Source of the DNA: Hericium rajendrae
Taxonomy: Eukaryota; Basidiomycota; Agaricomycetes; Russulales; Hericiaceae
NCBI GenBank assembly: GCA_033439255.1
Contig: CM065886.1
Coordinates: forward strand, 124,001 to 188,000
Direction of reading: 5' to 3'
DNA: 64,000 bases
The notes beneath the pieces are model-generated. The model was not told where the DNA came from. It saw nothing but the letters and a program-made list of their open reading frames with translations, and made no database searches. The position numbers and the translations under genes were made by a program. The first letter of the stretch is position 1. Every line of letters starts with the position of its first letter. This document shows, one piece after another, positions 23,356 through 64,000 of the stretch.

Positions 23356-24407
23356 TCACGCGCTTGCCGTACGAGCATGCAGTAGAGCTTGCAGGATGAC
23401 CGGGTTCTTGCGGATGTACATTCTGAAAGCTTCAGATGTCCATCTGCCGAGAGCTTGAATGCGGTCATCGGGCCATCCCTGCGTTGCGAAGTAAGTAGCC
23501 CCGCCCGACCGCAAGGAATGCCCGCCAAAAGACTGGGACAAACGGGCATGCAAGCGGGACAGGAACCACGATCGCGAAGGTACGTTGCCATCGAGTTTGA
23601 GCCAAAGCGCGGGGGAGATGGGGAATTGATGATCCCGCGAGGCAAGGTAACGCGTGAAAATCGAGCGCGGATCGACTGGACCTTCGCGTTGCGCGATGAT
23701 GATAGTGCTTCCTTCGAAAAAGCGATCTGCCTTGTGCGCAGGCAGAGAGTAGCGGAACATCGAGTCATCCAGACGGACTGACGAGCGCATGATGACCTTG
23801 CGCCAGTCACGGGCTTGCACACGGTCGGGCCAAGTGAGTTCGCCGAGACGGTGAAGGCCAAAAAACCCGCAAGCGAGGATGGCGAGGAAGAGGAGGTCGT
23901 CATGCGTAGGCTGGGGCGCGGCCTGGAGGAAGCCTTGCAGGTCGTCGATGGCGAGGGGTTCCTTGCGACGTACAGCAGAACCGAGTCGCTTCGTGCAGCC
24001 TGTCAGCGTGCGCGAGACGAGAGCACTGTTCCGGTTGGCGCGGACATCAGGAAACAGGTGCTCGAGCTGGTTGGCGATTCCGGATAGATATTGCCCGACA
24101 GATCGAGGTTGTCAGGAAACAGGTGCTCGAGCTGGTTGGCGATTCCGGATAGATATTGCCCGACAGATCAAGGTTGTATGTGGTGGCACATGAACACGAC
24201 ATAAAAAGATAATGTGTCAGGGGTGGGGTCGATGGCGAAGCTATGAATTTTGCAAAAGGTGAGGTAAGATTGCAAGTGGGAGTTATACGTAACGTGCGAG
24301 GAGGGATCGATCGCGCTGCCGAGCGCGATTGCACGCTCCCGAAGGAGGTGCTCCATCGTCCAGGGCTGCCTCGCGGGTTGCCTGGACGAGGTGAGAATCT
24401 CTAACAT
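23356..24407 (-). CDS. Ngaro tyrosine recombinase region
   Basis: Tyrosine recombinase (phage-integrase fold), which would insert the circular DNA copy. The N-terminal part reads HVTYNSHLQSYLTFCKIHSF, a SAM-like core-binding region. The catalytic part has GGHSLRSGGATYFATQG (HxxR-type box) and LGRWTSEAFRMYIR with the candidate nucleophile tyrosine. Fossil element: coding spans more than one frame. Confidence 0.75.
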
Positions 24408-26230
24408 CCCTCCTCGGCCCCCAGCGTCAGTCGAGGGGGTTGAAAGAGATGGATGTCCAGGTCGGCCTCGTATTGAAGAGCGACTTGTAGAAGGTTCCTG
24501 GACAAGGCATCGGCGATGATGTTGACTTCACCGGCGATATGAAAAACGCGAAGGTCGACGTGGTGCAATAGAAGCTTGCGGCAGGTGAAAAGAAGGAGCT
24601 CATTGTAGGACGGGCGGGCTCGCATAGAGTTGAACATCTGAACCGTGTTGAGGCTGTCTGAAAAGATGGCGACTCGTTGCGGGGTCGGCGAGAGTGAGCA
24701 GGCCCAATCTAGGGCAGAAACTACAGTGAGGGCTTCATACCAAAAAATTGTGTCGGCATTGCTAGGGGCCGTGGGCAGTTCCGAAATGAAACCACGATGA
24801 TGCGCCGGGGACCAAAAAGCGAGGCCACCTGTCAAAGAAGCATCACAATAAATGATGAGGTCAGCCTGGGAGCTGTCCCATTCGCGTGACGTGATGATAT
24901 GGATGCCATCGAAGCGTTCGAATGCATCAGCAAACCAAAGAAAGTCGCGGATGACGGTGGCATTAAGATAGATGGGGGCATTGCGAATGCTACGACCTGC
25001 TGTCTTGTCATACGCACTTTGGAGAGCGGGGCGGAGTAGGGGCGCAACATTGAGTCCCCAGTTCATCCATCCGAGGACGCGTTGCCACTCGACAAGGCGA
25101 CGGCGGCGCCTTGGAGCAGCAAGGACGAAGTCGCGAACGCCGCGCACAAGGGCAGTACGGCGCTCATCAGAGAGCGTGATGCGCATGTGGCGGAGATCGA
25201 CGTCGAGTCCGATGATGGTGCAAGTCGGCCCGAACAATTGCTTCGGCTTCTCGTGAGGCAAATGAATCTCGTCCCAAAGAAGGAGCAAGGCTACCTGTTT
25301 TGGGGGCAAAAAATCCTCATAAGGCTCATAGAAGACCAAATGTTCGCTGGGGTCATCTGAAAAGCAATCATCGATGTAGGCTAGAAGCCCGTCAATACCC
25401 TTCTCATTGATCGCTATCCAGAGCACAAGGCTCATGAATGCACACCAAAGCTTCCCAGATGCACGACCACCGAAATTGTTACACCTGTCGATGCGCCGAA
25501 CTCCGTCAACGGTGATAACTTGTTTAACTTGCCAAAGAGGATGCATGGGCAAGCGACGATACGCCATGGAGACGTCTGACTTGAACAGCCAACGCGGGGT
25601 CTTCCCCGTCAGGCGGCGGCGGCGGAGAAGATTGTGGGCCAAGTGTTGCACGTTGTCCAGATCAACATGAACCTTGTCCTTGTCAATCATCGAATTTAGC
25701 GAAAAGTCTCCTGCTGAATGGTCAACTACCATTCGAAATTTGTCGGAATTGGGCTTGGGAACCGCATGGACGGGCACACAGTACATCCCAGGCAGAAGCG
25801 GACCGTGAGGTTCCCCAAACGGGGCCGAAAACCGACCGAGTCTCTCTTCCTCTTCGCACTGTGCCTTGAGAAAGGCTAGGTCCGCAGGTGAGTGGTCGCG
25901 TTCGGGAAAGTCACGTGTTGTAGGGTAGGCGTCATTGTCTGGCTCTGCGCAAGGCCAGAAACCATGCCGCAAACCGCGAAGAACGGACTCGACGAATGGC
26001 CGATTTGGGTGGTTGATAAGGAGAGATTCGAAGTGATCCACGTCGATCGGCGTGAAAATCCCGAACAGCTCAGGATTCTCAGCAATCGTGGTGAGTGCTG
26101 CCTCATTCAAAAATTCAGCAGATGGTGGATCAGGGAGGGGAGATGCGGTTTCAGAAGCCGACGCGGATGGCGTGAGGAACGCATCGATGATCCTCGGCCA
26201 TATCTGTCCACGTAGGAACGGGGGTGGCTT
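24401..26230 (-). CDS. Ngaro reverse transcriptase / RNase H region
   Basis: Reverse transcriptase of the DIRS order. Visible blocks are FRMVVDHSAGDFSLNSMIDK, LFKSDVSMAYRRLPMHP (catalytic aspartate), GLLAYIDDCF (YxDD box), and an RNase H part with IIYCDASLTGGLAFW and FSDSLNTVQMFNS. The frame is open well upstream, over the gag-like region, but recognisable homology starts near 26.1 kb. Confidence 0.85.
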   Translation of the reverse strand, partial: KPPPFLRGQIWPRIIDAFLTPSASASETASPLPDPPSAEFLNEAALTTIAENPELFGIFTPIDVDHFESLLINHPNRPFVESVLRGLRHGFWPCAEPDNDAYPTTRDFPERDHSPADLAFLKAQCEEEERLGRFSAPFGEPHGPLLPGMYCVPVHAVPKPNSDKFRMVVDHSAGDFSLNSMIDKDKVHVDLDNVQHLAHNLLRRRRLTGKTPRWLFKSDVSMAYRRLPMHPLWQVKQVITVDGVRRIDRCNNFGGRASGKLWCAFMSLVLWIAINEKGIDGLLAYIDDCFSDDPSEHLVFYEPYEDFLPPKQVALLLLWDEIHLPHEKPKQLFGPTCTIIGLDVDLRHMRITLSDERRTALVRGVRDFVLAAPRRRRRLVEWQRVLGWMNWGLNVAPLLRPALQSAYDKTAGRSIRNAPIYLNATVIRDFLWFADAFERFDGIHIITSREWDSSQADLIIYCDASLTGGLAFWSPAHHRGFISELPTAPSNADTIFWYEALTVVSALDWACSLSPTPQRVAIFSDSLNTVQMFNSMRARPSYNELLLFTCRKLLLHHVDLRVFHIAGEVNIIADALSRNLLQVALQYEADLDIHLFQPPRLTLGAEEGC

Positions 26231-27482
26231 ACTTGCGCTCAGACTTGGGCTGGAGGCCCGAGCCTGACGCTTTGCCGCAGGAACTTGCCCCGTGGTCGCG
26301 CGCTTTGCAGTTGAAGCAGCTGTGGCGGTACTTGCAGGTGCGACTGACACAGACTCCCTCGTTGAACCTGCGGCAGACGTCATTGCTTCGGTTTCCCGAA
26401 CCTGCCGTTTTCGGAGCAGGCTTGCTAGCTCCTGCTCCCGCACTCGAGAAGTGGCTGATGGAGAGATCGGAGAAGTTTCCGAGGTCCGACAAGAGGAGCT
26501 GATTTGACTTGGGGACGCGGGATCGTGCCGCACGGTCGAACTGGATGACACGATCGGCGAAGTCGAGGGTCGTCGCACAGAAAAGGCGTGTGATCTCCGC
26601 GGAATAAAGTCGGAGCTCTTTCTGCCTGTGGGGATAGGCAAAGAGTACGGCCTCTGTGTAGGACTCCCAGGCGATGGTCCACTCTCCGTGGGATCGGACC
26701 GCCTTGGAGGGTTTAAGGTCTCCGGCCATGAAAGCGTAGCCGGTGTCTCCGAACTTCTCAACGACCTTGGGGTCTCCAGTGGTACTGTATTCACCGGAGA
26801 GGACCTTATCGAGGTCGATGAAGTTGTTCGCGAGGACATCCTTCCAGAGCGCCTGAGGGAACTCAGGAACCTCGGGGTTCGAAATGACAAGCTGCTTCGC
26901 TGAGTCGAGGTTCCGTGTGTAGTTCTCTTTGAGTCGCAAGGTGTCTCGCAACTGCTTATTGAGTCGAGCCGAGGCTCCGTCGCGCATGAACGGAATGATG
27001 GATTCGTCGAGGCGACGCTTGCCGCCGTCGGCATGGTCTCCGAGTCCTTCGTCTTCGCGGGACCTCTTGCGCGAAACGGGCTGGACATTCGGGACAGAAG
27101 GCTCTTCTTCCTCGTCTGAGTCTGATCCATCACTGGACGGAGTGGCGGGTCGAGACTCGAGCTTCTTTCCTCGCTCTGCAGAGGCAGATGTGAGCTGAGC
27201 ATGTTGCTGGAGCAACTCGAAGAAGGACTTGTAGGCGGCCTTCTGCTGAGACTCGGTGATGCTGGTGTCACTGGCGAGTGCTTGGATGACCTCCAAGGAG
27301 GCTTCGGCCATGGAGAGTCTCGAGTTGCGGTAATCCTCGACAAAAGCGAGGCACGCTGCGTTGAGCTCGGAGTTGAAGCCGGAGGGCTGCTGGGCAGACC
27401 CCTGTCCCGCTGTAGAGGCTCCACCTCGCGTTGACGCTGGCGGCGACGAGGCGGTACCGGAATGTCCATTGTGCTCAGACAT
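26229..27482 (-). CDS. Ngaro gag-like protein
   Basis: 417-codon ORF starting MSEHNGHSGTASS. It has an acidic and basic low-complexity middle (SDSDEEEEPS, RKRSREDEGLGDH) and a C-terminal nucleic-acid-binding segment CRRFNEGVCVSRTCKYRH then CFNCKARDHGASSC, one CCCH-type and one knuckle-like cysteine cluster. Likely the structural, RNA-binding protein of the element. Confidence 0.75.
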   Translation of the reverse strand: MSEHNGHSGTASSPPASTRGGASTAGQGSAQQPSGFNSELNAACLAFVEDYRNSRLSMAEASLEVIQALASDTSITESQQKAAYKSFFELLQQHAQLTSASAERGKKLESRPATPSSDGSDSDEEEEPSVPNVQPVSRKRSREDEGLGDHADGGKRRLDESIIPFMRDGASARLNKQLRDTLRLKENYTRNLDSAKQLVISNPEVPEFPQALWKDVLANNFIDLDKVLSGEYSTTGDPKVVEKFGDTGYAFMAGDLKPSKAVRSHGEWTIAWESYTEAVLFAYPHRQKELRLYSAEITRLFCATTLDFADRVIQFDRAARSRVPKSNQLLLSDLGNFSDLSISHFSSAGAGASKPAPKTAGSGNRSNDVCRRFNEGVCVSRTCKYRHSCFNCKARDHGASSCGKASGSGLQPKSERK

Positions 27483-27517
27483 AAGTGATCCGATAGATGT
27501 GAGGAACGATATATAAT

Positions 27518-27880
27518 GTGCTCAAAAACAGCTGCTCTGGGAGGAGAGCAACGTCAGTAAGCACGCGGTGCAATCCTCAGCGAGAGGAGACTAACCTGGG
27601 AGGAGAGAAGAGAGGCTAGGGGGCTCGATGCCCCGCGCACAACTCTCTTTATCCTCCCGCGCCGTGGCAGCAGGTTCCGAGACAACACTGACCACCCACG
27701 GAATGCATCCGCGGTCAGTGCGTCACTCCCGCCAGAGGTTCGCGTCGTCAGCGAGACTAACTCGCGCGGCGAGCGAACGATGGTCGAGGACCAAAAAACC
27801 TAGGCGCGGCCTAAGGACGGCGAAGCGTCGCAAGAGAGATCACGCTCGATTAGCCTCGTGTAAACATCGTCTAAACACGA
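27518..27880 (-). repeat. Ngaro split repeat A1
   Basis: 363 bp, 5' terminal repeat of the element on the minus strand; outer end lies 18 bp inside the host intron. Confidence 0.9.
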
Positions 27881-27966
27881 ATAAATTGAATGGCTTACCC
27901 GGAGATTGTGACACAAGGAATAATCTCGAAGAAGATTGACGGCGAACTCGGGCGACGCGTTGTAAG

Positions 27967-27974
27967 CACTGAAG
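27967..27974. repeat. 8-bp target-site duplication, left
   Basis: CACTGAAG, repeated exactly at 34391-34398 immediately outside the other transposon end. The uninterrupted gene needs only one copy. Confidence 0.85.
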
Positions 27975-28180
27975 TAGTCTAGTTTCTGACGCGTCCTCTT
28001 AGTGGGGGGGGTCGATCCTGGGCGGCGCCTGAATGTCAACCGCACTGAGTTTAGACGAGGATGGGGCGGAGTGTCAAACCTGGTGGCGCATGAAGCGCGT
28101 CCTGTAGAGCCCGTAGATACCTATCGTACTTCGGTGAAGACTCCTACAAGACTCGTTTCTTGCGAGTCCCTCATAGAAAT

Positions 28181-31100
28181 ATGCCGCCATCAAAACCGCG
28201 CGATAAACCCCCCGATTCTAAACCCCCACACTACATTGATGAACCCCGTGCCAAAGACATCGACCTCGTACTTCGGGACCTCGAGAATCGCGGGTGGAAC
28301 TGTCTAGGCAGTTTTATCAAAGATGTGCTCGCACTTCCGAACCCAAAGAAGGGTGAGTGTCGTGAGCAATACCACATACAGAAGGTCGTCGCTTTTTTAG
28401 GGCCTACTGTGAACAAGCAGAGCTTGGTGAAAGCCGACGAAATCGCCGAAATCATGTATTCACACCGGTACAGCTCTCCCAAGGCGGCACGCAACTCAAA
28501 AAACCGTCTGGCAGCTGAGGCAAAGCGACCGGATAGGGCAAAGATGGCGCAAGGTCTTCTGGAGGAGTGGGCCGTCAAGAAAGTCGAGTCCGTCGTCTCT
28601 GCGGAAGCGGACTCGGCCTCATCCCAGGACAGCGGTTTTCACCTGCGAGATCGCTTCGCCACCTGGGATTCGATCCTCCATTTTTCCATGACAGGAATTC
28701 TCGCCGTTGTCGAGTCACGAGCACCTGTAATGCTACGCCTCCTGTTAAGCATTGCTTATCCCCGCAAGAGTCGTCCCCAGCCCCAGCTACAACTCCCTTA
28801 TGCCAGCATTCCCGAACCTGCGCACAATGGTGTTGCACCTATGGACATCGACAGCGAGATGACACAAAATTCTCCGACAGATGAACTTTCGGCAGCATCT
28901 ACACCCAATCATGCCGCTTCGAGTTCTCCGCCGCCATTGACATACGCGACTCACTTTTCCAAGCCGGCGCCCTCAGGTACGGGCAAAAATCGACGTAATC
29001 CATTTATCGTTAGTATTCAATGACTTCACCTGGTCCTATTGAACTAATGGCTCCTCACAGATCCTGCTTATTGCATTTATGCTCTTAATGAGCGCACGGA
29101 ACCTCCATTTCTCTGCGTTTCGGAAGATGATCGGTGTTTGGTTGTTTGCACATACTGCGCAGCATGGCGTGTATACCGTTCTCAGTCGGTTCGGACTCTC
29201 AGCTTCCTACACGTCGGTCCTCAGGTTTTTGCGCGCACTATCCAAGTCTGCCCAGTCCAAGCTCCGAGAAGTCGCTCGGTTGCGCGCATTCCTTCTCATC
29301 TATGACAATATCAATCGGATGTTCCGTGCATGGGATGCGGAACTCGGTCAACAAGATACCATCCACAACGGGACAGCAGCGACATTCGTCGAGCTCGAGG
29401 ATTGCGACCCTGAGAAGGCTTTCGACATCGACCCTTTACGGCGAGCACATCAAGAGAAGCGACGCGCTCAGCTTACAGACGAAACACTTCACCGTCGAAT
29501 CGATCATGCCAAGCTTAATTCACGGCTCGCGCTTCATTGCTTGCTGTTCCTCGTGGATGAAGTTCCGAGCCTTGAGCACCATCGCGCTTTCATTAAATTG
29601 CGCTTCCAGACAACACTAGCAGCACACCGCATGCGACGGGGACGCAAGACTAAATTCCATCCCATGGCGAGCTCGGATTTCAATGAAGGAAACACGGCCG
29701 AGAATGCAAAAGTCCTACATGATCTCCTTGTTACTCAGCTCGGGTTGCCAGAAGATGAAGTGGCAAATGTCCTAACTATCGTTGCCAGTGATCAGTCAAC
29801 CATCGAGAAGCTGCGTACGCTCAAGAAATTTCTGGCATCATGTCCGCATGGCTATAGGAATTATGGATGGGTGCTACCGCTGATTCAGCTTTGGCACATG
29901 GGTTGGTCCGATCTCGAGCGCATCATCAACACGCACTGGGGAAGTGAGGTGAACGACGTGTCATCTTTCTGCTCGACAAATGTGATCATGGGCCGAAACG
30001 TCAAGAATATCAAACGTCCTGATTATTATCCTGCCCAGCATCTGGTATTCGATAATCTCAAGGTGGAGATCCTCGACTGCTGGAGGTACGACTTCTGTTC
30101 TGCAGTCAATATCTCTACATGCTAATATATCCATATAGGAAGCTCTTGGGAAAGAAGGATCTAGATCATTACTTTGCGAGCAATCCAATGGCCATCGAGG
30201 ATTTGCTTAAGCATGTGCGAACACTGCTTGAACATTACTGCTCGACAGCTGCTTATACACAAGCCCTCTATCCTGATCAGTCTCTTCCAGAATTCTTCAG
30301 TGTCGGAAAGCCATGGACTCAATATGATGGAGGCAACCAGCCTGTTGTCAAAGGTGATCAGGTCCTAGCAAATGGAATATTGCGGCGGCGTGACAGTCTT
30401 GTTCACTACGAGTTTCAGTATGCAGTGGCAGATGGAGATATTGGCCGAGCAATAAATGTCATGGCGGTGAGTTTCCAATGTCGTTTTGCAACATTCGCTG
30501 ATGACAAATAGGTCTGGGTGTTTTCCTTTGCTGGCTCTGGGCGACACAAGTACACAAACGAGTTGCTTGAACTCACCTGCAATTTTGAGTTTGAATATTC
30601 TCCTGAGCTTTGCAAAGCAATACTCAACAATTGGCTCTGTAACATGTCAGGCATTGATGGGTGCTGGTTTCCCATGGACCTTCTCCAGGAAAAGCTGATC
30701 CGCCAACTCAAGAAAATGTCCGAGCAGAGTGACGCTACATTCGGAGGTCAATTTTACCGTGATGTTGTCTCCAGGAATGTTCGTGCATTGCTCGACACGA
30801 TGGCAGCTATGTTGGAAGCCATTGGATTAGCAGAACGAGGAGGGACTCATCACCGAGAGAAGAAAATTGCAGCGAGTAAAGAACTGCAAAGGAAAATCGA
30901 AGATGAAGAGCTTAACTTGTTTCGGGCGGGCCGTACATTAGGACACATTGCTCGAGATGATTGGGCAGCAGGTGACATTCGCCTCGGAGATGGAAAGAGA
31001 ATCAGAGAGTATATTGAGCAGACACTACGTGATGCAGGAGATATACAGGGTGATGAAGAAGCCTCAGCTGATGATGAGCATGATCTGGTGGAACAGGACA

Positions 31101-31255
31101 TTCCGTTGCCAAACATGCTAATCAATGGACAGCTCGTGGCAGGAGACGAAATTCATGGTGATCGGGAGCCCACCGAGCAGGAGAAGGAGCTCCTCGAATT
31201 CATCTGCAGTGGCGAGGATTTGGGATTAGGCCTCTCTGACAGTGATGAAGAATAG
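28181..31255 (+). CDS. DUF6589-type protein, candidate transposase (copy 1)
   Basis: Four exons with clean GT-AG introns: 28181-29008, 29061-30085, 30139-30466, 30512-31255. Start chosen at 28181 (MPPSKPRDKPPDSKPP), the first ATG of the frame. The N-terminal 270 residues are basic then Ser/Pro-rich. The core has LLIYDNINRMFRAWD, NGTAATFVEL, VASDQSTIEKLR, LIQLWHMGWSDLERIINTHW, DYYPAQHLVFD and LDCWR. The C-terminal part has FAGSGRHKYTNELLEL and MDLLQEKLIRQL, and ends in an acidic tail DLGLGLSDSDEE. These blocks recur in the same order in copy 2. The spaced conserved acids (YDN, SDQ, the final D/E) would suit a DD(E/D) nuclease, but this is inference; the family is annotated only as a domain of unknown function, to my knowledge. 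Confidence 0.75.
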
Positions 31256-31284
31256 TGTCCATACTGATATTTATTATGACGCAG

Positions 31285-34134
31285 CTACTCGCTTCGAACG
31301 ACGACGTGGGGCAGTTGTTTCGGTAATATTTTCCTTCCGCATGCTCTCCCCTTCCACAGACTTGGTCTGCAATGCAGAACGAGCCCCCTGGATGTCAGAT
31401 ATGTGAGTACATTGATTGAATGGGAATAGTAGGCATAGGGAACCTTGTGACCGAGCAATGTTTTCACCAATTTTGCTGGTGGCTGCTCGGACTCTGTACG
31501 TCCTGGGGATGCTGCACGTTTTCTTGCCTTGTGAGCATAGAAGCGTTCCGTGGGTATCGGTTGACTGAGGGTTTGATCGAGATGGAAGTGGGCGCGTGAT
31601 GAACTTGGGGCTCGATTTGACAGACTCAAAACTGGTGGCGCCAATCGCACGGGCATAGAATCAGGTGTGGTGGCACGCACGTTCACGGAGGTGGATGGTA
31701 ACGAAATAGAGGCGGGACTAGTGCTTGGCGCTGGCGCTGAGGTAGCTGTACTTTCCAGAGCTGCTGTAAGACCGCAAACCAATGAATAAAAACACACGGA
31801 TCATTCAAAGCCACTCACCGGTGCCGTTTTCGTCAGTAGCATCATTGTTGAGAGACGAGGCCGGAACAACCAGCCGCACTCGCTTGATATGGTCCAACCC
31901 TTTGGCAATGAGGTCGGCATGAACAATTTCTGCACCTCGCCTCTCGCGCGCCTTGCGCTGGTTATCGAGAGAGCTCTGATGTCGCTGCTCGGCTTTCTCG
32001 TGAAAGCGCTCGACCAGAACTGCCAGCTCTGACCATAATTCAGCACCAGCCCTTTCCCAGTACCGCCAATCGTGCCGAATACGACGTTCGAGATCCTGCA
32101 GTGAAGAAAGAAGGTGAAAGTCTATAGTTAAGCGCTTTGCAACGTCAGGGCGAAGGAAACTCGTGGGCCCAATCAACAAGGACTCTGGCCCATGAATTGT
32201 TTTCCTCCAGACCTTGCGTGCAATGCAGTCGAGCTCTTGAGAAAGCTCGTCGACCTCCGCACGCGAGAGTTTCATGTAGGCTGGGAGTCTCGCTGGATCC
32301 GGAACATCGTCTGCGCTTGGGGGAGTGGTCGACTCGGGTGTGTCGGGGATGGGTGTTGGCATCAGTCGGGGTGCAGGCAGGGGACAAGGTAGACACGAAC
32401 TGCAATGCCCGCAGTCATGATCAGTCCCAGGGTTGTCGTAGACGATGTTGATCTGGCGAGAAATACAGAGACCGCGTGCGTGTGCTGCGATGATAAGATG
32501 GCACGCGAAGCACGGGCGTTTGCCTTGTTCTGAAAGCGGCAATTCAGTTGTCTTCTTCCTTCCCACCACCTTCGTACTTTTTCCGCTTCCCTTGATCCCA
32601 GCCGTCGTTTTCTTCGGAGGCTTGACAGTTGGAAATGGTAGCGTACCATCTACATCATGTGCATTGTTAATTTCTACCCCGGCCGTTCCCGCTTGAATGA
32701 CGGCAGCACCCATCACATTGCTCTCCTTTGCAGCCATCTCTTGCCCCTCGCTTGCGACGTTTCGATTGGCCACCTCGCTACATACGTCGTTGATGACAGG
32801 CTGTGATTGTGCGCCATCCTGGGTCCCATTTGGTAGGCTTGCATGGCCAGGTAGATTTTTGGGGTCGAGAAGACGTGAATCTGGTGGGTCGCACCGTGTG
32901 TACTCCAACGCCGCTTCAATATCTGTTTTCTTGACATAGATGTACGCTTCTCCATGCATTCCAGGAGCGCGCGCTGGACGCCCTGCCCTCTGAACAATCG
33001 AGGAGGCACTCGTCGGTGCAGGAAAGAGTACGACGCTGTCGATATCCGGTACGTCGAGCCCCACCTCCCAGACAGCTGTCGCCACAAAGATCGCAGTCGT
33101 GCGCTCATTTGCTGCTGCATTCAGTGCTGCGAGACCCTCCTTTTTGCACTCTGGGCAGTTCATGGAATGCATATGGCGAATCAGACTATATCCATCGCTT
33201 TGGAGTTGGGTTGGGAGGAGTCTGCGAAGATATACGGCAATGCGATGCCCTATCTCGATGGTATCGCTGTAGACGATGCGCTTTGGGACATCCGCGGCGC
33301 ATGCCATGTCGGGTGGTACAAGCCAATCGAGGTCCCGAAACTCGAAGCCAGTACAGGTGAATTGCACAGTGCGAAAGATAAGGTCAACGTTGTGACGCTG
33401 ACAGTCGCGTTTATCCAGATGGTATGCGTCTTCACGGTAACCGAGGCGCTGTAGTATCCTTTTCATCTGGGCACCCTTCTCGACAGTAGCTGACATCGCG
33501 ACAAGCGTCAGATGCTCGGGCCGTGCGAGTGCAGGGTCCAGATGTCTGCGTAAGCCTTGCGAAAGTTGGTACCTCAGTGGTCAACAAGGTGGGCCTCATC
33601 AACGACGAGAACGCGCCAGCGCTGCCGAAAGTATGGATCGTCATTGAGCCTGGCGTATTCAGGTGACTTGAGCATCTCGGGGGATAGTGCGATGACTTGA
33701 TACTGCCCGTCCTTTGCCTCGTCCCATAGGTTGCGGCTTTTGGCCTTCGCGACCTCAATCTCTTCGGTATTTATCACTATGGAAGTGAGTCCTTTACTTT
33801 GTAGATTAGAAACCTAAAAGAACTGATTAGTATCTGAATCTCGTAGGATCTGGATACTGACCATATTGTTTTCGAGTGCATTAGTAGGTTCCACAACAAC
33901 GGTGATCATTTCCTTGCGCACCAAGGCCGGGATATATATCAATGCTGACTTCCCGTCACCCGTTGCAGATATGCAGAACACATCCTGCCCATTGAGGATA
34001 CATCCCGAATCATATGCCTGGAAGTCGCGAGGTTCAAAAGAGAGGTATGGTTCAATGAGTGACTTGATATTGTTGAGACCTGCCGTTGAGGTCCAGTTCT
34101 GTGTTGAGTCAAATGCAGGTATAATAGAGGACAT
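31285..34134 (-). CDS. RecQ-like DExH helicase (copy 1)
   Basis: SF2 helicase, presumed 3'-5' DNA unwinding. Start at 34134 (MSSIIPAFDSTQNW). Exon 1 has FQAYDSGCILNGQDVF and motif I ISATGDGKSALI, ending at GTCAGT near 33861. The next exon has VIALSPEMLK and motif II VLVVDEAHLVDH. After another intron come motif III LVAMSATVEKG, motif V VATAVWEVGLDVPDID and motif VI IVQRAGRPARAPG. A cysteine-rich segment follows (CFACHLIIAAHARGLC ... CGHCSSCLP), like a RecQ zinc-binding module, then a long C-terminal extension with DWRYWERAGAELWSEL. A last exon (about 31285-31780) ends LPHVVVRSE. No exonuclease or HRDC domain is seen. It faces the DUF6589 gene and is likely carried by the transposon, not a host RecQ. 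Confidence 0.8.
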
Positions 34135-34223
34135 TTTAAAAGCATTTTAAAGGAGTGTAGGCATTATAAGAAGCTTCAGAAGGGACGCAGGGATATAACG
34201 ATGAATATCTACAAGTCGACACG

Positions 34224-34229
34224 ACGCGT
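34224..34229. promoter_or_regulatory. ACGCGT box upstream of the copy-1 helicase
   Basis: The palindrome GACGCGTC lies about 90 bp upstream of the helicase start, within CACGACGCGTC, which recurs near the start of the copy-2 helicase. ACGCGT is the core of the fungal MBF (MluI cell-cycle box) site used for G1/S genes. Another lies at 27989-27994 by the left end. Function is inferred only. Confidence 0.3.
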
Positions 34230-34390
34230 CGAGCGTGAAGATGATACGGTACATGTGACCTGCCGAACAAGCCGATGTGGCTGAAACGACCCCTCCCGCT
34301 AAGACCCGGGTTATTGATAGCAGACGTCAGATACGACGATCCTGAGGCACGATGGTTGAGTCCAGTATCTACTCTGCCCCCGGGAGACTA

Positions 34391-34818
34391 CACTGAAGCG
34401 CTGAATGATATTTTGATGAATGCCGCCCTCAACGTGATTGGTGCCGCGCAAGCTGCGATAAAGCAATAGACTGTCTTTGTCACGGCCACGCACAAAGTAG
34501 AGAGACAGGCCAGGTGGATCTGAGTAGTAGCCACGACGGATGTTCTCAAGGACATTTCGAACTGTGTCCCAGGCTGCGTCGTTGAAGAGCGGCTGTCCGG
34601 TCTTGGCATCCTTGAGTGGCCCATATGTAAAGAGTACCTCAGAAACGCGAGACACTAATGTCTCGGGCTCAGGAACGTGGCGCTTCATTCGACGAAGGAT
34701 CCACTCGGGGTGCGAGAGAAACATGGCCTTGAATGACGTGCCACGCCGTTGTAACACATCCTCAATGGTCGCTTTGTCCTCTGGATCTGGAATAAAAATA
34801 GCATCTCTGAGGGCACGG
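34391..34818 (-). pseudogene. Stranded exon of the DUF6729/exonuclease gene
   Basis: A 428-bp coding island between the copy-1 transposon and the gypsy element. On the minus strand it reads ALRDAIFIPDPEDKATIEDV, RRGTSFKAMFLSHPEWILRR, GPLKDAKTGQPLFN, SDPPGLSLYFVRGRDKDSLL and GTNHVEGGIHQNIIQRF. No stops occur. Its 5' edge follows the exon ending RRPFAR at 52513 in frame, and its 3' edge continues in frame into AYNASPEFA at 27974, across one copy of each target duplication. This segment is the C-terminal region of the exonuclease protein; its own function is unknown. Confidence 0.8.
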
Positions 34819-35012
34819 TGTCACGCTCGCAACACGTTTCGAGCGCTAACATGAAGAAAAGGGCGGCGCATCACTCATTTCGCTTATAAAATGAGAAGAA
34901 GCAACGTCATGTAAGAATTTGCCAACCTGCATCAAAACCATCCCACAAACACCCTGCACCCTCCCTAAAGCCTTATTCACGCTCCCTCTTGACTCCGCCC
35001 CTCATGCTCCAA

Positions 35013-56619: not shown

Positions 56620-56980
56620 GAGACCGTCCCAACCGTCCCAACCGTCCAACCTGTCCAAGCCGACCGTCCCGCCGCGGGACAGTCTGGACAGTTGCCTTAT
56701 TCGGACACCTCTTCGAATTGTCCACCATGCAGTCCCTTTTTGCGCTCATGCCGGTTGGGGTTGGGATGGGTTGGGTTGGCGGTTGGGTTGGCGGTTGGGT
56801 TGGCGGTTGGGTTGGTTGGGTTGGCGGGTATATTGATTTTTCGAGGGATGTGAGATATTGAGTTTGGGTTAGGGTTGGACAGACCGACCGTCCCAACTGT
56901 CCCAACTGTCCACAATTGAATGGCTTACTTAAGCATTTCGGGACAGTTGAGACGGTTGAGACGGTTGAGACGGTTGAGAC
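56620..56980. repeat. Minisatellite upstream of the exonuclease gene
   Basis: Three related short arrays: CCGTCCCAA units (56626-56690), GGTTGGGTTGGC units of 12 bp repeated about five times (56755-56835), and GGTTGAGAC units of 9 bp repeated about four times (56945-56980). The first and last are roughly inverted relative to each other. The middle array is G-rich with runs of three G and could form quadruplexes. Confidence 0.75.
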
Positions 56981-57236
56981 TAGTCTCCAAAGCAGACCGT
57001 ATAACACGCTTTCCTTTTTGAGGTGAGAGGGGATGGCGTGATAACGGTCTGCTTTTAGACGCGGGGGTCTCATAGCGATGACCCATATCTTCAGCACGTG
57101 ATGTAGATTGTACTTTTCATAGCTCGTGGAGCTCCTTAATAAGGAAATGATGACTTGTTGACATCTGAGACATGTCGTCCGAAAGCATATCTCACATCTT
57201 GCCGTTGGTCAGGACAGTCCGCAAAGCTGTCAGATA

Positions 57237-60200
57237 ATGTCCGACAATCCAGACAACCCCTCTGAATTTTTATCAGCCAGTACACCACTTTCTTCGCTAG
57301 CTACAGAGACACCTCGCACAATCACCTTGGATGATATCCTCAACAGTCCTTTATTTCCTGTCGCCGTCCAAATGCTCGTTGATGTCCCAGGCCTGACCCA
57401 ACGGATATTCGGGACTTCGCCAGAATCTGCCTCTCGTGCCTCAATCGTGGAGATATCTGAGGAAGGTGCAGCAGAAGGTGGAGCCTCTCCAGAAAGTCAG
57501 GGAGACTCTGTTGGAGGCTCTCAAGAAGTCGAACACACTCAGATAGAAGGTATGAATTGATATCTAGTGATAGGATAGGTAGCTCACATCTGCGTAGACA
57601 ATATCGCCACCAATACAGTGGCTACATGCGAAAAACGGCAGTATCGGATGCCTGGCGACAAGCTCGATATTGTCAATGCCGCAATGGCCGATGTGGGTTG
57701 GACATTTGGCGAATACTTGTATTATGCATCGAAGGAGCATCTGACCGACAAGAACGGCCGAGATGTACATCGATCGCACTCTCACATACAACGAATCAGT
57801 CAATTTCTCAAAGGTGGCAAACCGGATGCTCGAAAGACTTACGGACCAGTCGACATCATTCGCGCATGGTTCGAAAGCTCATATGGCAGACCTGGAAGCG
57901 AAAACAGAGGCCTCATGTTCTCAACAACAACACGAGCTGATGCTATTCGGCCCGCACGTGCAGCAATAGCAACATTTGCAGTGGAGCTTGTTGAAGGGCA
58001 TCTTGTGCGCGAGATGGAGACAGCGGTTAAGCCGTCCAGCGGCCTTCATGTTGTGGTCAGTAGCAAGAGGGGAAAGGGTACCATGGAGTGGGGAAAAATA
58101 GGTGCACATACCTTAGCGAAGGTAAAGGGTACCTTCAAGAAGCACACCCCGCTTGCATTCCATTTGCTCTCAAAGATGGCAGCACGGCCACCCCGAAAGC
58201 TAAATGGTGTGGCCATTGTGCGAAAGAAGCGTCCTGTTGATGACGTGAGTACTCAATTCTTGTAATCGAGCATGCACTGACCTTAGCGCCAAGGTGGTCA
58301 CGCACATATTATCATCAGCAGCGTATTCACGCATGCAACGTGCGAAGCTCTTGCAAATGATGCGTGGTGTCGTTTACCTTGCGAGTGGTGCCCATTCGAA
58401 CCTCTACCGGTTGAATAATCGTGTCGGACTCCTTCCTTCATACATGACAATCCATCAATCACTTGTAGATGCCGGCAAAGAGGAGGCACTTACTGTCGAA
58501 GCACTCGGTCGAAGCGAAACGGAATGGCTTATGCTGCGCACTGATAACGTGCAGTACTACTCGAAACTCTGGGAGCCATCAATGGGACGGGAGTCTCAGA
58601 TGGTCAAAGGCATGGCCGCAACAGCGGTGAAGATGGTTGACTTTGATCCGAAGGCTTGGGACCTTGACGACAAGCTGGAGTGCCTTGCGAAGAACGAACG
58701 TCGCCTCGTTGACATCGATTGGTTCCTTGGATTGATCGACCAAGCACATATGGAGACCGTCAAGGTATTGCAGTGGTTGCAAACCCTCGTCCGCCATGTC
58801 CCGGAGCTCAATGGGTATCGCCGACATGTCAATGACTTATATAAAACCCGAGCAGCAAAATGCCTACCTTCGGAATGCAAGAAGACCGAGATTTATCCTC
58901 TCGCGGTCACGCAGAAGGATGAGAACCTGACGACGGAGCTTCGAGATGCCATTGTCGAGTTCCTTAGCCAGCTAGGCCAGAAGGATGGAGACTACGTGCG
59001 ACGACTGGTCCTGGCGGGTGGTGACGGCTTAACATATGAGAAGTTCCTTCAAATGAAAAAATACCTTCAATTCCATCCCGACGCTCTGCAATGTCTTGCT
59101 GTTCTCGAGCCATTGCTTGAGCTGTGGCACCTGGAATGGACTGATCTCAGCTGGATTTTCCAGGTCCATTGGGGCCAGAGCTCTGCAAAAGACCCATCGA
59201 CTCTTTCTCACAGCGCAGCCGCAATCGGCCAGAAGACGCCTACCGACTTGTCCAAAGTGGACTATTATCCTGCAGCGCGGCTCGCATATCTCGTTCTGGA
59301 TGCACGCCTGCTCGATTGTTGGAGGTCTGTCATCGCAATAATCACCACTTCAACTATAAAAATTAATTAACGCACCATGATTTTCAGGATTAATTATCGA
59401 GCGCATGACTTGTTCGAACATTTCAAGGCACTGGAACAACAGGATCAGTTGCCGTCATTCGAGGAGCTCGAAGGTACTGCCTTGCACTTACATCGCACAT
59501 ATACAACATCGAGGGCCTATGCTCGAGCACTGAGCGCCTCAGAGCGCGAGGCAGAGACTGTGTACCGAGTGCCGGAGGGTTCACCATGGAGGCCAGCAGC
59601 CCGCGCACATGCTGAGTCGACCACACTGTCATCCAGCCATACCGAGGAAGCCAGCGAATCTCAAGCTGCTTCGCAGAGTTCGTCTGCAGCACAAACTGGT
59701 CAGCAGCAGCAAGATAAGACAACAGAAGAGTTTACCGGAGATCATGCCTTAGCACGTTCCATGCGCTTTATGGAAGATGCAATGATATCACGCGAGGTGG
59801 CATACGCTGTCGCTGTAGGCGACACAGGGCGCGTTTACGAGGGAGTGAAGGTGAGCCAGCTTGTAACCACAGTATGGCGGGTGATATGACCTACATCACT
59901 AGTGCATGTTATTCACGTTTGTGGGTTCAATGCACTCAAAGTACACAACATACCTCCTCGAGCTCATAACATCACTCGAACTCGAGTGTAGTCCGAGCTT
60001 GCGGATCGCAAAATTCAAGAACTGGGTCGTTAATCTCTCCGGGATTCCAGGCCACTATATAGAAGGTGACTTAATGCAAGAACACTTGAACAAAGCACTA
60101 GAAGAGCTCCTTCAGCGCAAAGATCTAGACTTTGATAGCTCGTTCGTCAAAGATGTCATAACTCGGAACTTACATCACCTTAATCGCATTCGAAGGAGAT

Positions 60201-60675
60201 GGAAGAAGCTTTGAAGCTTAAGCCCCGCACTAAAGGGCATACTTCGCCGCATATGCGACCGGAGCTGAAACGCCTGCTTTGGGACTGTCGCCAAACGCAG
60301 CTTCATTCTTGGCGTCGTGGTCGCACGTATGGAAGCAGCGACGTTGATTTATTCAGCTGCGGATATGCCAGTCTTGAGAAGAAGATAGATCAGTGGAAAC
60401 ACGAAACGCTAGAAGACCGTGGACTTACCGAACTGCAGACTGACCTTGAAACACCTTCGACCGTGGAAAATCCAGAGATTGGTAATGAGATAGAGGATCA
60501 ACAGGACGAAGACGTACCAGCTCGCCCGCTGACTCGCGGATTCAAATGCATGGTAGATGGGGAATTAGAGATCGACTTCGACGGCATGGAAATCGAGTAT
60601 GAGAGTGACGGTGACAATGACGACAATGGTGAAGGAAATGTTGGCGGGATTGAGCAAGCTGCAGAAGATAATTAA
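57237..60675 (+). CDS. DUF6589-type protein, candidate transposase (copy 2)
   Basis: Start at 57237 (MSDNPDNPSEFLSAS). Exon 1 is acidic. Exon 2 (about 57597-58243) has YRMPGDKLDIVNAAMADVGW and HSHIQRISQFLKGG. Exon 3 (about 58292-59323) has MLRTDNVQYYSKLWE, VLAGGDGLTYEKFLQMKK, LLELWHLEWTDLSWIFQVHW, DYYPAARLAYLVLD and LLDCWR, aligning block for block with copy 1. Two further exons give YAVAVGDTGRVYEGVK and MLFTFVGSMHSKYTTYLLEL, LSGIPGHYIEGDLMQEHL. Near 60190 the frame ending HHLNRIRRR must shift to reach EEALKLKPRTKGH, a probable frameshift. The tail is acidic and ends EQAAEDN. An extra Ser/Gln-rich insert (about 59590-59720) is absent from copy 1. Confidence 0.7.
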
Positions 60676-61013
60676 ATTGAGTCTGGTCAACGTATCTACA
60701 GTCATCTGGTAAGAAAATTATCTATTCTCTTTATCCTAGAGTAATAATGAGCTCCTAAGCCACAGTTCGCAGGCCAGATATCAATAGCAACTCACCTGCG
60801 TACGTGTTCGCTTTGCGCTCCGAGGTTGCGCAATTTCGCTTTGAAGCACGTCGTTTTGGCGTTGCTGTTGTACTCTCCGAAGGCTCGCTATCCTGTGAAG
60901 GGGTTGCGCTGTGCGAGATGTCAGTTGATAAAGGAGAATCGTGGCAACTTGGACTCACCCGGTGTTTAATTGCCACGACACGATCATATGTGCAGGAATC
61001 CCTGTGAGACACA

Positions 61014-63215
61014 TCAAGGGATGAACTCCAGCACTGGAACGAATTCACAAACACGGTACGTACCTGTTCCAGTTCCTCGCGCTCGCGCTTGAGACGACGT
61101 TGCTTGCCTCGTCGACTCCGGCTCTACCGTCAGCTGGTCTGCTGGACTGCCGAGCCCTGGTTCGATTGCCAACACGGTTGGCGCGGATCCAGCACTCGCC
61201 GCTTCATCGGAACTCACCCGCGCCGTCGCGACTGATTCGACTTCCATCGTGTCCTCGGTTGCATTGTGGATGCTATTGTTGTTGTCAGAGGTTTCGCTAG
61301 GGGCTTGCGCTGGAGTCGGTGTGTCTTCAAGCAATCGGATTTCACATATGACCGACCACAAACGTGTGGCGTGTGGTTGCAAGTATCTTTTGGAAGCGAT
61401 GAGGGTGTTGAGGGTGTCGAGAGAGGTAAGCGATGTGAAGTTGTTGATGATGGAGGCGATGATGGAGTCTGGCAGGAAAGCGACCATGGGAATACTCCCA
61501 TGATCGCGTTTCGCTGGCCTCCCGCCATATCGCCGCACGGAGCGCCAGAAGTCGCGCCCGGGCTTCCCCCTTCAGGTCACTGCGGATCGGCTTGCCTACA
61601 AGGCCAGCTGGTGCACTAGACAATGGTTTGGGGATGGGAGGTAGCATCTCTGGGACGCAACGACTGCAGTTGCAAGTCGAGCGGCGGCTGGGCGGTGGAG
61701 AAATGGAACACGTCTTGCAGGAACATGCCGGATTTGTAGGTGGGTTTCCATAATACCGATCTTGTTCGGCTGTCAAACACGGCGCGCGGATCATCTGCGC
61801 CATTCCAAGTGACATCTCCGGACCTTTTCTCTTCGACTTCGACTTCTGAATGTCAACTCCCTCTCCCTCCAGCGTGTTTTGAGCTCCCTTGAGAATTGTG
61901 TCAGCCTTCTTGTTAACAGACCCGGTGAGATACATGATCCCTCTTGCATCTTTCACTTTCGCCCAGTCACGTCCGGCCCTACCCCAGCGCTGATGAGCCT
62001 CATCTGGGTCAGAAACCTCGCCAACAATGACCACGTCCTGGATATCTGGTGCGTCGATTCCTTCGGCCATAGCTGCTGTCGCGATCGTGATATTTGCTGA
62101 TGGGTTATCGTAGAGTATCTTTCTGGTCGCCTCGTTGTACGATGGCCAATTTAGGGCCGTGTACATGCGTATCCGTGTCGACAGATTGCTTTTGTCCGTC
62201 GCAGAGACCCACAGGTAGCATGTTACTCGGAAGGCGAGTGATATTGTTGCACAGTAAATGACAGTCTTGCGATTGCTTTCCAGGATCCATAGCAGCGCAG
62301 GAAACCGACGCCCATTGATCCCGCTCTCAAGGTAGCGCAGGAGAAGTTGCAAGCCTGGCCGAAAGTTGGATCGACGAATGCAATGAAATTGCCCCTCGCG
62401 CAACTCCAAGAACTTGCAAATGTCTTCGTAAGGTTTGCCAACTGCAATTGTAGCCGAGGTTCCGATAATGACGACATCCGCGGGCAGGCGCGCACGCATG
62501 AGTCCGATCTGCATGAATGCCTTGCGAAAAGACTTGCCCCACCATGAGAGGAGGTGCAGTTCGTCTATCCCCAAGCCAACGACTCTCTGCCAGAATACTG
62601 AGTTGTCGAGCAGATCTCCACAGGGCTTGCCAATCAGCTGCTCGGGTGACATCATCAGCATTGAGATGCCCGTGCGAGCCTTGGCCCATAGGTCTTCATC
62701 TTTCAGCCGGGCATTGTGCACAGTGATTGCATTAATGGCAAGCGTATCAAGCCCCAGTTTTCTCATCTTCTCTGCCTGTATGTACATCAGCTAATCATAG
62801 ACCTCAGAAAATACTGGAAACACACCATCTGCTCCTCTATTCCATTCGTCGGACACACAACAATGATTACTGGATCTGTTGGGTATGATCTGCCTTGTGG
62901 GCAGAGATGAGGATTATTTGCTAGGTGGATAGCCATTAGGATAAACATGTAGAAGTAGCCAGTTTTCCCATCGCCTGTCGCGGTAATCGCAATCAAGTCC
63001 ACGCCGTCGAGCGCGCTGCAGACACCTTGAAGCTGGTAGTCATGCGGGTCAAATGGAAGGAGCCTTCGGAGGCATTGGCGGACAAAGAGTTGGCCAGACG
63101 AAGACGAAAAATTATGGAATTGGCTTATAGTAGGCTGCTCGACATCTATGTCGGGCGCGGACATGTGTGGGGTGGTGTATCTCTGCAGCACTTCCGCACG
63201 ACGCGTCCTCAACAT
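61014..63215 (-). CDS. RecQ-like DExH helicase (copy 2)
   Basis: Start at 63215 (MLRTRRAEVLQRY) or the in-frame MSAPDIDVEQPT about 18 codons later. Motif I is ITATGDGKTGYF. A short intron near 62790-62825 joins VVCPTNGIEEQM to AEKMRKLGLDTLAINAITVH. Motif II is LGIDELHLLSWWG, motif III IIGTSATIAVG, motif V ATAAMAEGIDAPDIQDVV, motif VI AHQRWGRAGRD. A cysteine-rich segment (ACSCKTC ... CNCSRCVP) follows, like copy 1. Near 61510 the frame changes before FLPDSIIASIINNFTSL and LWSVICEIRLLED, which match the C-terminal extension of copy 1, so one frameshift is likely. Ends VPVLEFIP at 61014. DELH replaces DEAH in motif II. Confidence 0.75.
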
Positions 63216-63223
63216 GGACGCGT
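63201..63223. promoter_or_regulatory. Paired ACGCGT boxes at the copy-2 helicase start
   Basis: ACGCGT at 63201-63206 and 63218-63223, one on each side of the upstream ATG at 63213-63215. If transcription starts here the later ATG is more likely used and both boxes would be promoter sites. Same motif as upstream of the copy-1 helicase. Confidence 0.3.
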
Positions 63224-63305
63224 CGCGTTTGTTTATTGTTAATCACGATCACGTGCATTGCTTATCGACCGTCCCTATCACTACATCGCATCGCTATCCA
63301 GACTA

Positions 63306-64000
63306 GGTTGAGACACTTCCAGAAACCGTAAACCCTCCAGAGTTTACGGATGCACAAGGAAGGCGTCGCCCACTCCTTCCCAAAAAGGGACGCAACTTCT
63401 TTCCTACTACAAGTTCGCGGCGCCTCTGTGCTGGCATCTTTCGACGACGGCGACGACGTACCAATCAACATTCTCGCTTGTGGCCCTTCACAAAACATCA
63501 TCGCATCTATAGCTTCCATATGGGGCTGCTCAATTCTAGGATGAGTGCTAGCCGATAGATAGAGACGACTAGCCGATAGCCGGTGAAATAGTAAAGCCGG
63601 GTTTTCGACGCCGAGGAATTCTCGAGATGGATACCGAGTAAATGATCTGAGTTTGAACTCAACCCAAGCCTGCAGCGAGCCTCCGAATTTGAACATGAGA
63701 ATGCGTTAGTGAGAGAGTGAGAGGGACACACATCTACAAGGGTCGAGCCCGTATCTACCTGCCTCTAAAATGCTGCGGGAATCGATGGGGTGAGTATGTA
63801 CAGAAGATTCACGATTTAGCGGGCAACTGAACGTGCACGGCGTACGTTTCCCCAGTGCTCCCGGTGTGGGTTAGGGTTTTTAGGGTTTCCGCCGCAAGGC
63901 TTCGGCTACCTGGTCCTGGATTGTTGAACACATTGCTCGTGCACACAAGTCTCACTGTTCAGCAATTGAGAGATCCTTCGAATGCACATCTTCCTCGTGT
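63306..64000. other. Right flank, no supported gene
   Basis: Contains a short hairpin CCGTAAAC...GTTTACGG (63326-63350), a GTTAGGGTTTTTAGGG telomere-like fragment near 63870-63885, and an ATG followed by a GTGAGT donor at about 63769-63795. The palindromic relation to the exonuclease upstream region hints that a divergent gene could start here, but the window ends too soon. Confidence 0.35.
63307..63333 (-). repeat. Inverted repeat arm, right
   Basis: Partner of 56581-56607. Before copy 2 inserted, the two arms would have been only about 370 bp apart. Confidence 0.6.

Follow-up and report, generated by a model that had tools for sequence, protein, structure and literature searches.

AcademH is a lineage of the Academ superfamily of DNA transposons, reportedly described by Kojima in 2020. 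According to the accessible text of PMC10045372, AcademH elements have a helicase and target-site duplications of 9 or 10 bp, and AcademX elements have a nuclease and duplications of 3 or 4 bp. AcademH is given as a low-copy group in Basidiomycota, Ascomycota and Mucoromycota in the consulted part of PMC10799480. A second type of element with a helicase, KolobokH, is described in the available section of PMC9587614 as restricted to fungi and encoding a RecQ helicase located downstream of the transposase domain.

The stretch of DNA analysed here (the window, 64,000 nt) comes from Hericium rajendrae (GCA_033439255.1, contig CM065886.1, positions 124,001–188,000 of the forward strand), and further copies were searched for in the whole genome (46.8 Mb, 19 contigs). 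The window contains a real transposon that carries a DUF6589 gene and a helicase gene as one mobile unit, which is strongly supported by the two-ended copies and the gene linkage described below. The sequence-only reading had reported the ends TAGTCT/AGACTA, a perfect 8-bp duplication and the movement of both genes in one piece, and all three statements were borne out; its limits (27967..34398) took in both duplications, and the element proper lies between them (Table 1). The terminal inverted repeat is exactly 6 bp long. It had also been claimed that a host frame reopens when one copy of the duplication is kept, and fusion of the flanks in this way indeed gives an open minus-strand frame of 198 aa, from stop to stop, across the insertion site. 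For this interrupted ORF (34399–34820 and 27800–27974, minus strand), the right-hand part gave no match to Pfam, and the ORF is left unclassified. Another long minus-strand ORF (24401–27553) gave a weak reverse transcriptase match (RVT_1, E 0.0011, below the cut-off), and a second ORF overlapping it gave a weak zinc-finger match (E 0.048); this region is perhaps a retroelement adjoining the insertion site.

Table 1. Features of the two transposon copies in the window (positions within the window).
Feature	Position	Strand	Length or basis
Whole transposon	27975..34390	+	6,416 bp
Left copy of the target-site duplication, CACTGAAG	27967..27974		8 bp
Right copy of the duplication, CACTGAAG	34391..34398		8 bp
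B-end, terminal TAGTCT, DUF6589 side	27975..27980	+	
A-end, terminal AGACTA (minus strand: TAGTCTCC)	34385..34390	-	
Inner GTCTGC motif (plus strand: GCAGAC), bordering the A-end unit	34320..34325	-	
A-end unit, also occurring alone at other genomic sites, flanked by 8-bp duplications	34326..34390	-	65 bp
DUF6589 gene, four predicted exons, likely transposase	28181..31255	+	974 aa; Pfam PF20231 on three exon pieces; splice model
Apparently broken gene for a RecQ-like superfamily II helicase	31805..34146	-	Pfam Helicase_C and DEAD; RecQ models and structures (N-terminal piece); frames
Left duplication of the second copy, GGTTGAGAC	56972..56980		9 bp
Second, divergent full-length copy (DUF6589 on plus, helicase on minus strand; A-end on DUF6589 side)	56981..63305	+	6,325 bp
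Right duplication of the second copy	63306..63314		9 bp

Four splice models fitted the DUF6589 gene; the one chosen is free of stops and has a GTGAGT donor and predicted introns at 29009–29060, 30086–30138 and 30467–30511. In a Pfam scan, three exon pieces matched DUF6589 (PF20231) with E values of 9.7e-51, 2e-19 and 3.4e-37, and the first exon piece had no Pfam match. A comparison of 25 DUF6589 matches from the genome, including two parts of one locus (L020 and L027), revealed that the first Asp (of DN) was kept in 22/22 and the second Asp (of GDQ/GDG) in 24/24 of the matches covering these positions. Several loci have Tyr, Asn or Gln in place of the Glu of KY..E, and one has Asn in place of the Asp of GD.GR; the third acid of the candidate catalytic triad is not settled. 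Linkage, element ends and the two conserved Asp motifs indicate that DUF6589 is likely a DDE-type transposase, as had been suggested earlier; on the other side, a profile search of the PDB with DUF6589 gave no match at E up to 10. Using a divergent DUF6589 alignment as the query, six proteins were matched among 7999 scored candidates, five of them named and fungal, with no bridge to animal Academ. A separate search gave 56 DUF6589 relatives among 8000 scored candidates, and those carrying organism names are presumably all from Agaricomycetes. One DUF6589 copy (C7:1248936, L009) shares 88% identity over 91% with a Hericium alpestre protein.

The helicase gene gave matches to Helicase_C (E 6.7e-11) and DEAD (E 6.6e-07). 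The best matches of its N-terminal piece were RecQ models and structures, while those of the C-terminal piece were superfamily II helicases generally, the top ones including Cas3 and eIF4A-type chains; the latter piece also matched a Cas3-type helicase model in the Pfam scan. The helicase motifs listed in the sequence-only reading are present, but the reading frame is interrupted by an in-frame TGA after what we take to be motif II and by a frame change before what we take to be motif III. The gene thus appears to be broken in this copy, unless the TGA and the frame change are sequence errors.

Genome-wide, 35 DUF6589 loci and 26 helicase loci were listed. A helicase lay within 8 kb of 18 of the 35 DUF6589 loci, where about 0.35 would be expected for random positions, and a helicase of this type was absent within 8 kb at the other 17. 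The genes of all 18 linked pairs were on opposite strands (14 convergent, 4 divergent). Adding C9_959, where about 16 kb lie between DUF6589 and the helicase, brings the known pairs to 19, and 15 of these were examined for ends (C10_1794, C2_1764, C4_808 and C18_221 being left out). Both ends were found in 11 of the 15, the window copy included; no two-ended element was found at C2_1936, C16_267, C16_255 and C11_1231. It is worth adding that C16:255258–268923 holds two DUF6589–helicase pairs that closely resemble each other, are oppositely oriented and have a divergent gene order, possibly an inverted duplication. Perfect duplications flanked ten of the 11 two-ended copies, with a length of 8 bp in four (the window copy, C16_59, C11_695 and C2_506) and 9 bp in six (C7_1248, C9_959, C9_182, C9_1626, C6_3044 and C11_592), and C8_1872 had two ends and no duplication. 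Since 90 mismatched flank combinations from ten of the two-ended copies shared at most 3 bp, these duplications are not due to chance. The sequence-only reading had looked to further copies for the same ends and for 8-bp duplications; the duplication length turned out to be 8 bp in only four copies. It should be noted that the interiors of C9_959 (20.6 kb), C11_695 (9.6 kb) and C2_506 (31 kb) were not seen, and that the left end of C2_506 was paired through its 8-bp flank and end sequence.

Compared with the systems described in the literature, the best known match by published description is AcademH, owing to the helicase gene inside the transposon and the 9-bp duplications in six of ten copies, to which the fungal host can be added. 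Unlike the reported 9 or 10 bp, four of the ten copies, including the window copy, have 8-bp duplications, and a 10-bp duplication was found in none of the ten. The AcademH option raised earlier is retained with this discrepancy, and the other branch offered with it, a new class, is the less likely one. AcademX as presented in the text available differs from this element in both the nuclease and the 3–4 bp duplications. The consulted portions of PMC12730594, PMC12210899, PMC8290104, PMC9970103, PMC9674265 and PMC10051438 contained nothing deciding the membership.

If the element belonged to a distinct superfamily outside Academ, DUF6589 would represent a separate transposase lineage with an independently acquired RecQ-like helicase. 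The 8-bp duplications in four of ten copies and the 6-bp terminal repeat would fit this, as would the fact that DUF6589 was named in no paper found by our literature search; the helicase, the 9-bp duplications in six of ten and the fungal host match AcademH as far as its published description was seen, and we consider a separate superfamily unlikely. It is very improbable that DUF6589 is only carried along and that the actual transposase lies elsewhere. The 17 loci without a nearby helicase could be read in this way, and the copies were located via DUF6589 and the helicase, so that the presence of DUF6589 in all of them is not independent evidence; however, Pfam scans of the main ORFs of the element gave only DUF6589 and helicase domains above the cut-off. 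A KolobokH element, which would likewise be fungal and encode a RecQ helicase, can practically be dismissed, as Kolobok duplicates TTAA while the duplications here are 8–9 bp of varied sequence, and the helicase, placed downstream of the transposase domain in the KolobokH description available, is here on the opposite strand in 18/18 linked pairs.

The two ends of the element are not equivalent, and neither this asymmetry nor the solo pieces described below had been noted in the sequence-only reading. All 11 A-ends begin with TAGTCTCC, while none of ten B-ends do, and all 11 A-ends contain GTCTGC at position 50–88; nine of them have CAGA at positions 12–15. Two B-ends contain GTCTGC, that of C9_1626 at position 111 and that of C16_59 at position 3, where it belongs to the end itself. 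In three copies (window, C2_506 and C16_59) the gene on the side of the A-end is the helicase, and in the remaining eight it is DUF6589. The terminal sequence of C11_592 is TAGACT, its inverted repeat is longer, at 25 bp or more, and this copy falls outside the A/B type. In 8/8 copies compared, the common prefix of the A- and B-ends was limited to the outermost 6 bp. When the interior of each A-end was aligned with its own B-end, the best local alignment set the inner GTCTGC opposite the GTCT of the B-end in six of ten copies (C2_506, C8_1872, C7_1248, C11_695, C6_3044 and C9_1626), the aligned stretch of C11_695 beginning further in, at the expected offset. This alignment exceeded all 300 shuffles in three of the six; the window copy, C16_59, C9_182 and C9_959 gave none at the expected offset. 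Based on the alignment in several copies, the A-end looks doubled, with an inner end mirroring the B-end and an extra outer stretch with its own TAGTCT.

The stretch outside GTCTGC recurs throughout the genome as solo pieces, 47–73 bp long where the duplication is exact, between duplications of 8 or 9 bp. A search with the final 70 bp of the element in the window gave at least 41 matches (40 of 91 candidates scored). Leaving aside the A-end of the element itself and the complete C2 copy, 39 of them were taken as the window-type set. A duplication was sought 45–80 bp from the outer end. An exact 8-bp duplication was present in 18/39, at 58–73 bp, as against a proportion of 0.018 of 1482 in the control with flanks of other copies, and 13 of these 18 pieces begin with GTCAG, which immediately adjoins GTCTGC in the parents. 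In five more matches the two copies of the duplication differed at one position, and one of these five is a tandem artefact. The window A-end recurs without any change in four pieces, each at a different site. Two solo copies with common flanks (C12:1823386 and C7:2455096) may be one event. Four further window-type matches belong to longer, non-autonomous elements whose left end is TAGTCT and whose 8-bp duplication is exact; one of these elements is 663 bp long and three are 706 bp long (C13:1403019, C7:2071986, C6:3237885 and C1:4639936).

For three other A-end types, exact 9-bp duplications were found in 5/9, 5/10 and 1/3 matches (11/22 in total; control 2 of 462). These counts cover the short matches that were fetched (12/33 of the C6 type and 3/16 of the C11 type) and exclude two truncated C9_182-type matches as well as loci L138 and L139. 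By our reading, nine of the 11 pieces stop no more than about one base away from GTCTGC of the parent; the piece of the C11 type stops four bases before it, and one is shorter. Within the range searched, an exact duplication was absent from 21/39 window-type and 11/22 other matches, some being longer elements and some looking decayed. The inner border is common to several parent types (window, C2_506, 706-bp, C9_182 and C6), and the unusual borders are singletons, not families.

No solo B-end could be demonstrated among the matches of the three B-ends searched (window, C9_182 and C6). The window B-end had one non-self match, the left end of C2_506; the C9_182 B-end had three, each located at a known copy, and the one next to C2_1936 lacks the last 25 bp. 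The C6 B-end gave one short match (C1:1733105, L135; 66 bp at 88%) with no recognisable duplication in the 96 bp seen, and it is unexplained. Solo-TIRs of Galileo (PMC3573991) and Styx (PMC10853768) are similar in that single element ends remain in the genome; in the accessible descriptions a solo-TIR is defined by its missing partner, while a solo A-end is bordered by a recurrent motif and both target duplications. The literature seen, including parts of PMC1978519 and of the two papers just named, contained no duplication-flanked solo end, although one may still be in print, and solo ends are not mentioned for AcademH in the available text of PMC10045372 and PMC10799480.

Based on the above results, we consider it probable that the element is an AcademH-type DNA transposon with DUF6589 as a DDE-type transposase, a doubled A-end, and solo A-ends left behind after excision. 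The outer end of the solo pieces is fixed, their inner border is mostly fixed with an occasional shift or extra bases and lies at the counterpart of the B-end, and both sides have the parent's duplication length, all of which suggests excision scars. In this main reading, DUF6589 would join the TAGTCT ends to the target with an 8- or 9-bp stagger, with the helicase, encoded on the opposite strand, as its partner. On the A side, the outer end would be the one joined to the target, the inner GTCTGC lying 49–87 bp further in, and after many excisions the stretch outside GTCTGC would remain between both target duplications. As a tentative proposal, possible but still doubtful on these comparisons, transposition would be a semi-conservative cut-and-paste process, with insertion by the outer A-end, exit by the inner one, and one solo A-end left per jump. 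During excision, the cut in the transferred strand would fall at the outer TAGTCT and that in the other strand about 48–66 bp further inside, at GTCTGC, which is the counterpart of the B-end. The helicase would then part the strands of the stretch between the cuts, so that one departs together with the element and the other remains in place, and repair would make both double-stranded. Staggered cuts with strand separation would also answer how full copies keep their outer stretch. The helicase had earlier been assigned to excision, target opening or repair, and the solo A-ends may point to this more specific role.

It is rather doubtful that the solo A-ends are themselves mobile, being mini-elements from one-ended transposition and not scars. 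Each duplication-flanked piece has its own target sequence with the parent's duplication length, and the identity of four pieces to the window A-end is also consistent with this, but the pieces lack a second TAGTCT end, their inner borders vary beside a fixed outer end with the unusual ones not forming families, and the usual border falls at the internal GTCTGC, which resembles an end. It is rather improbable that the solo A-ends stem from gap repair that was aborted after an ordinary excision, with about 50–65 bp copied from the A side. Such repair would leave a piece of one side only, with a precise outer end and an end-like motif at the stop point; against it, several sequence types have an identical inner border, located at that motif, and partial B-ends were not demonstrable among those searched. 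Recombination between the two ends was rejected, since they are inverted to each other and would invert the DNA between them rather than delete it.

These results connect DUF6589, a family of fungal proteins whose function is unknown, with mobile DNA whose ends are defined. Very short copies of one element end appear to have been left by relatives of the element in the same genome and may hint at the function of the helicase, and the doubled A-end together with the solo pieces makes the question of helicases in cut-and-paste elements testable at the bench. If the proposal for excision outlined above is true, the semi-conservative mode would explain why such transposons carry a helicase.
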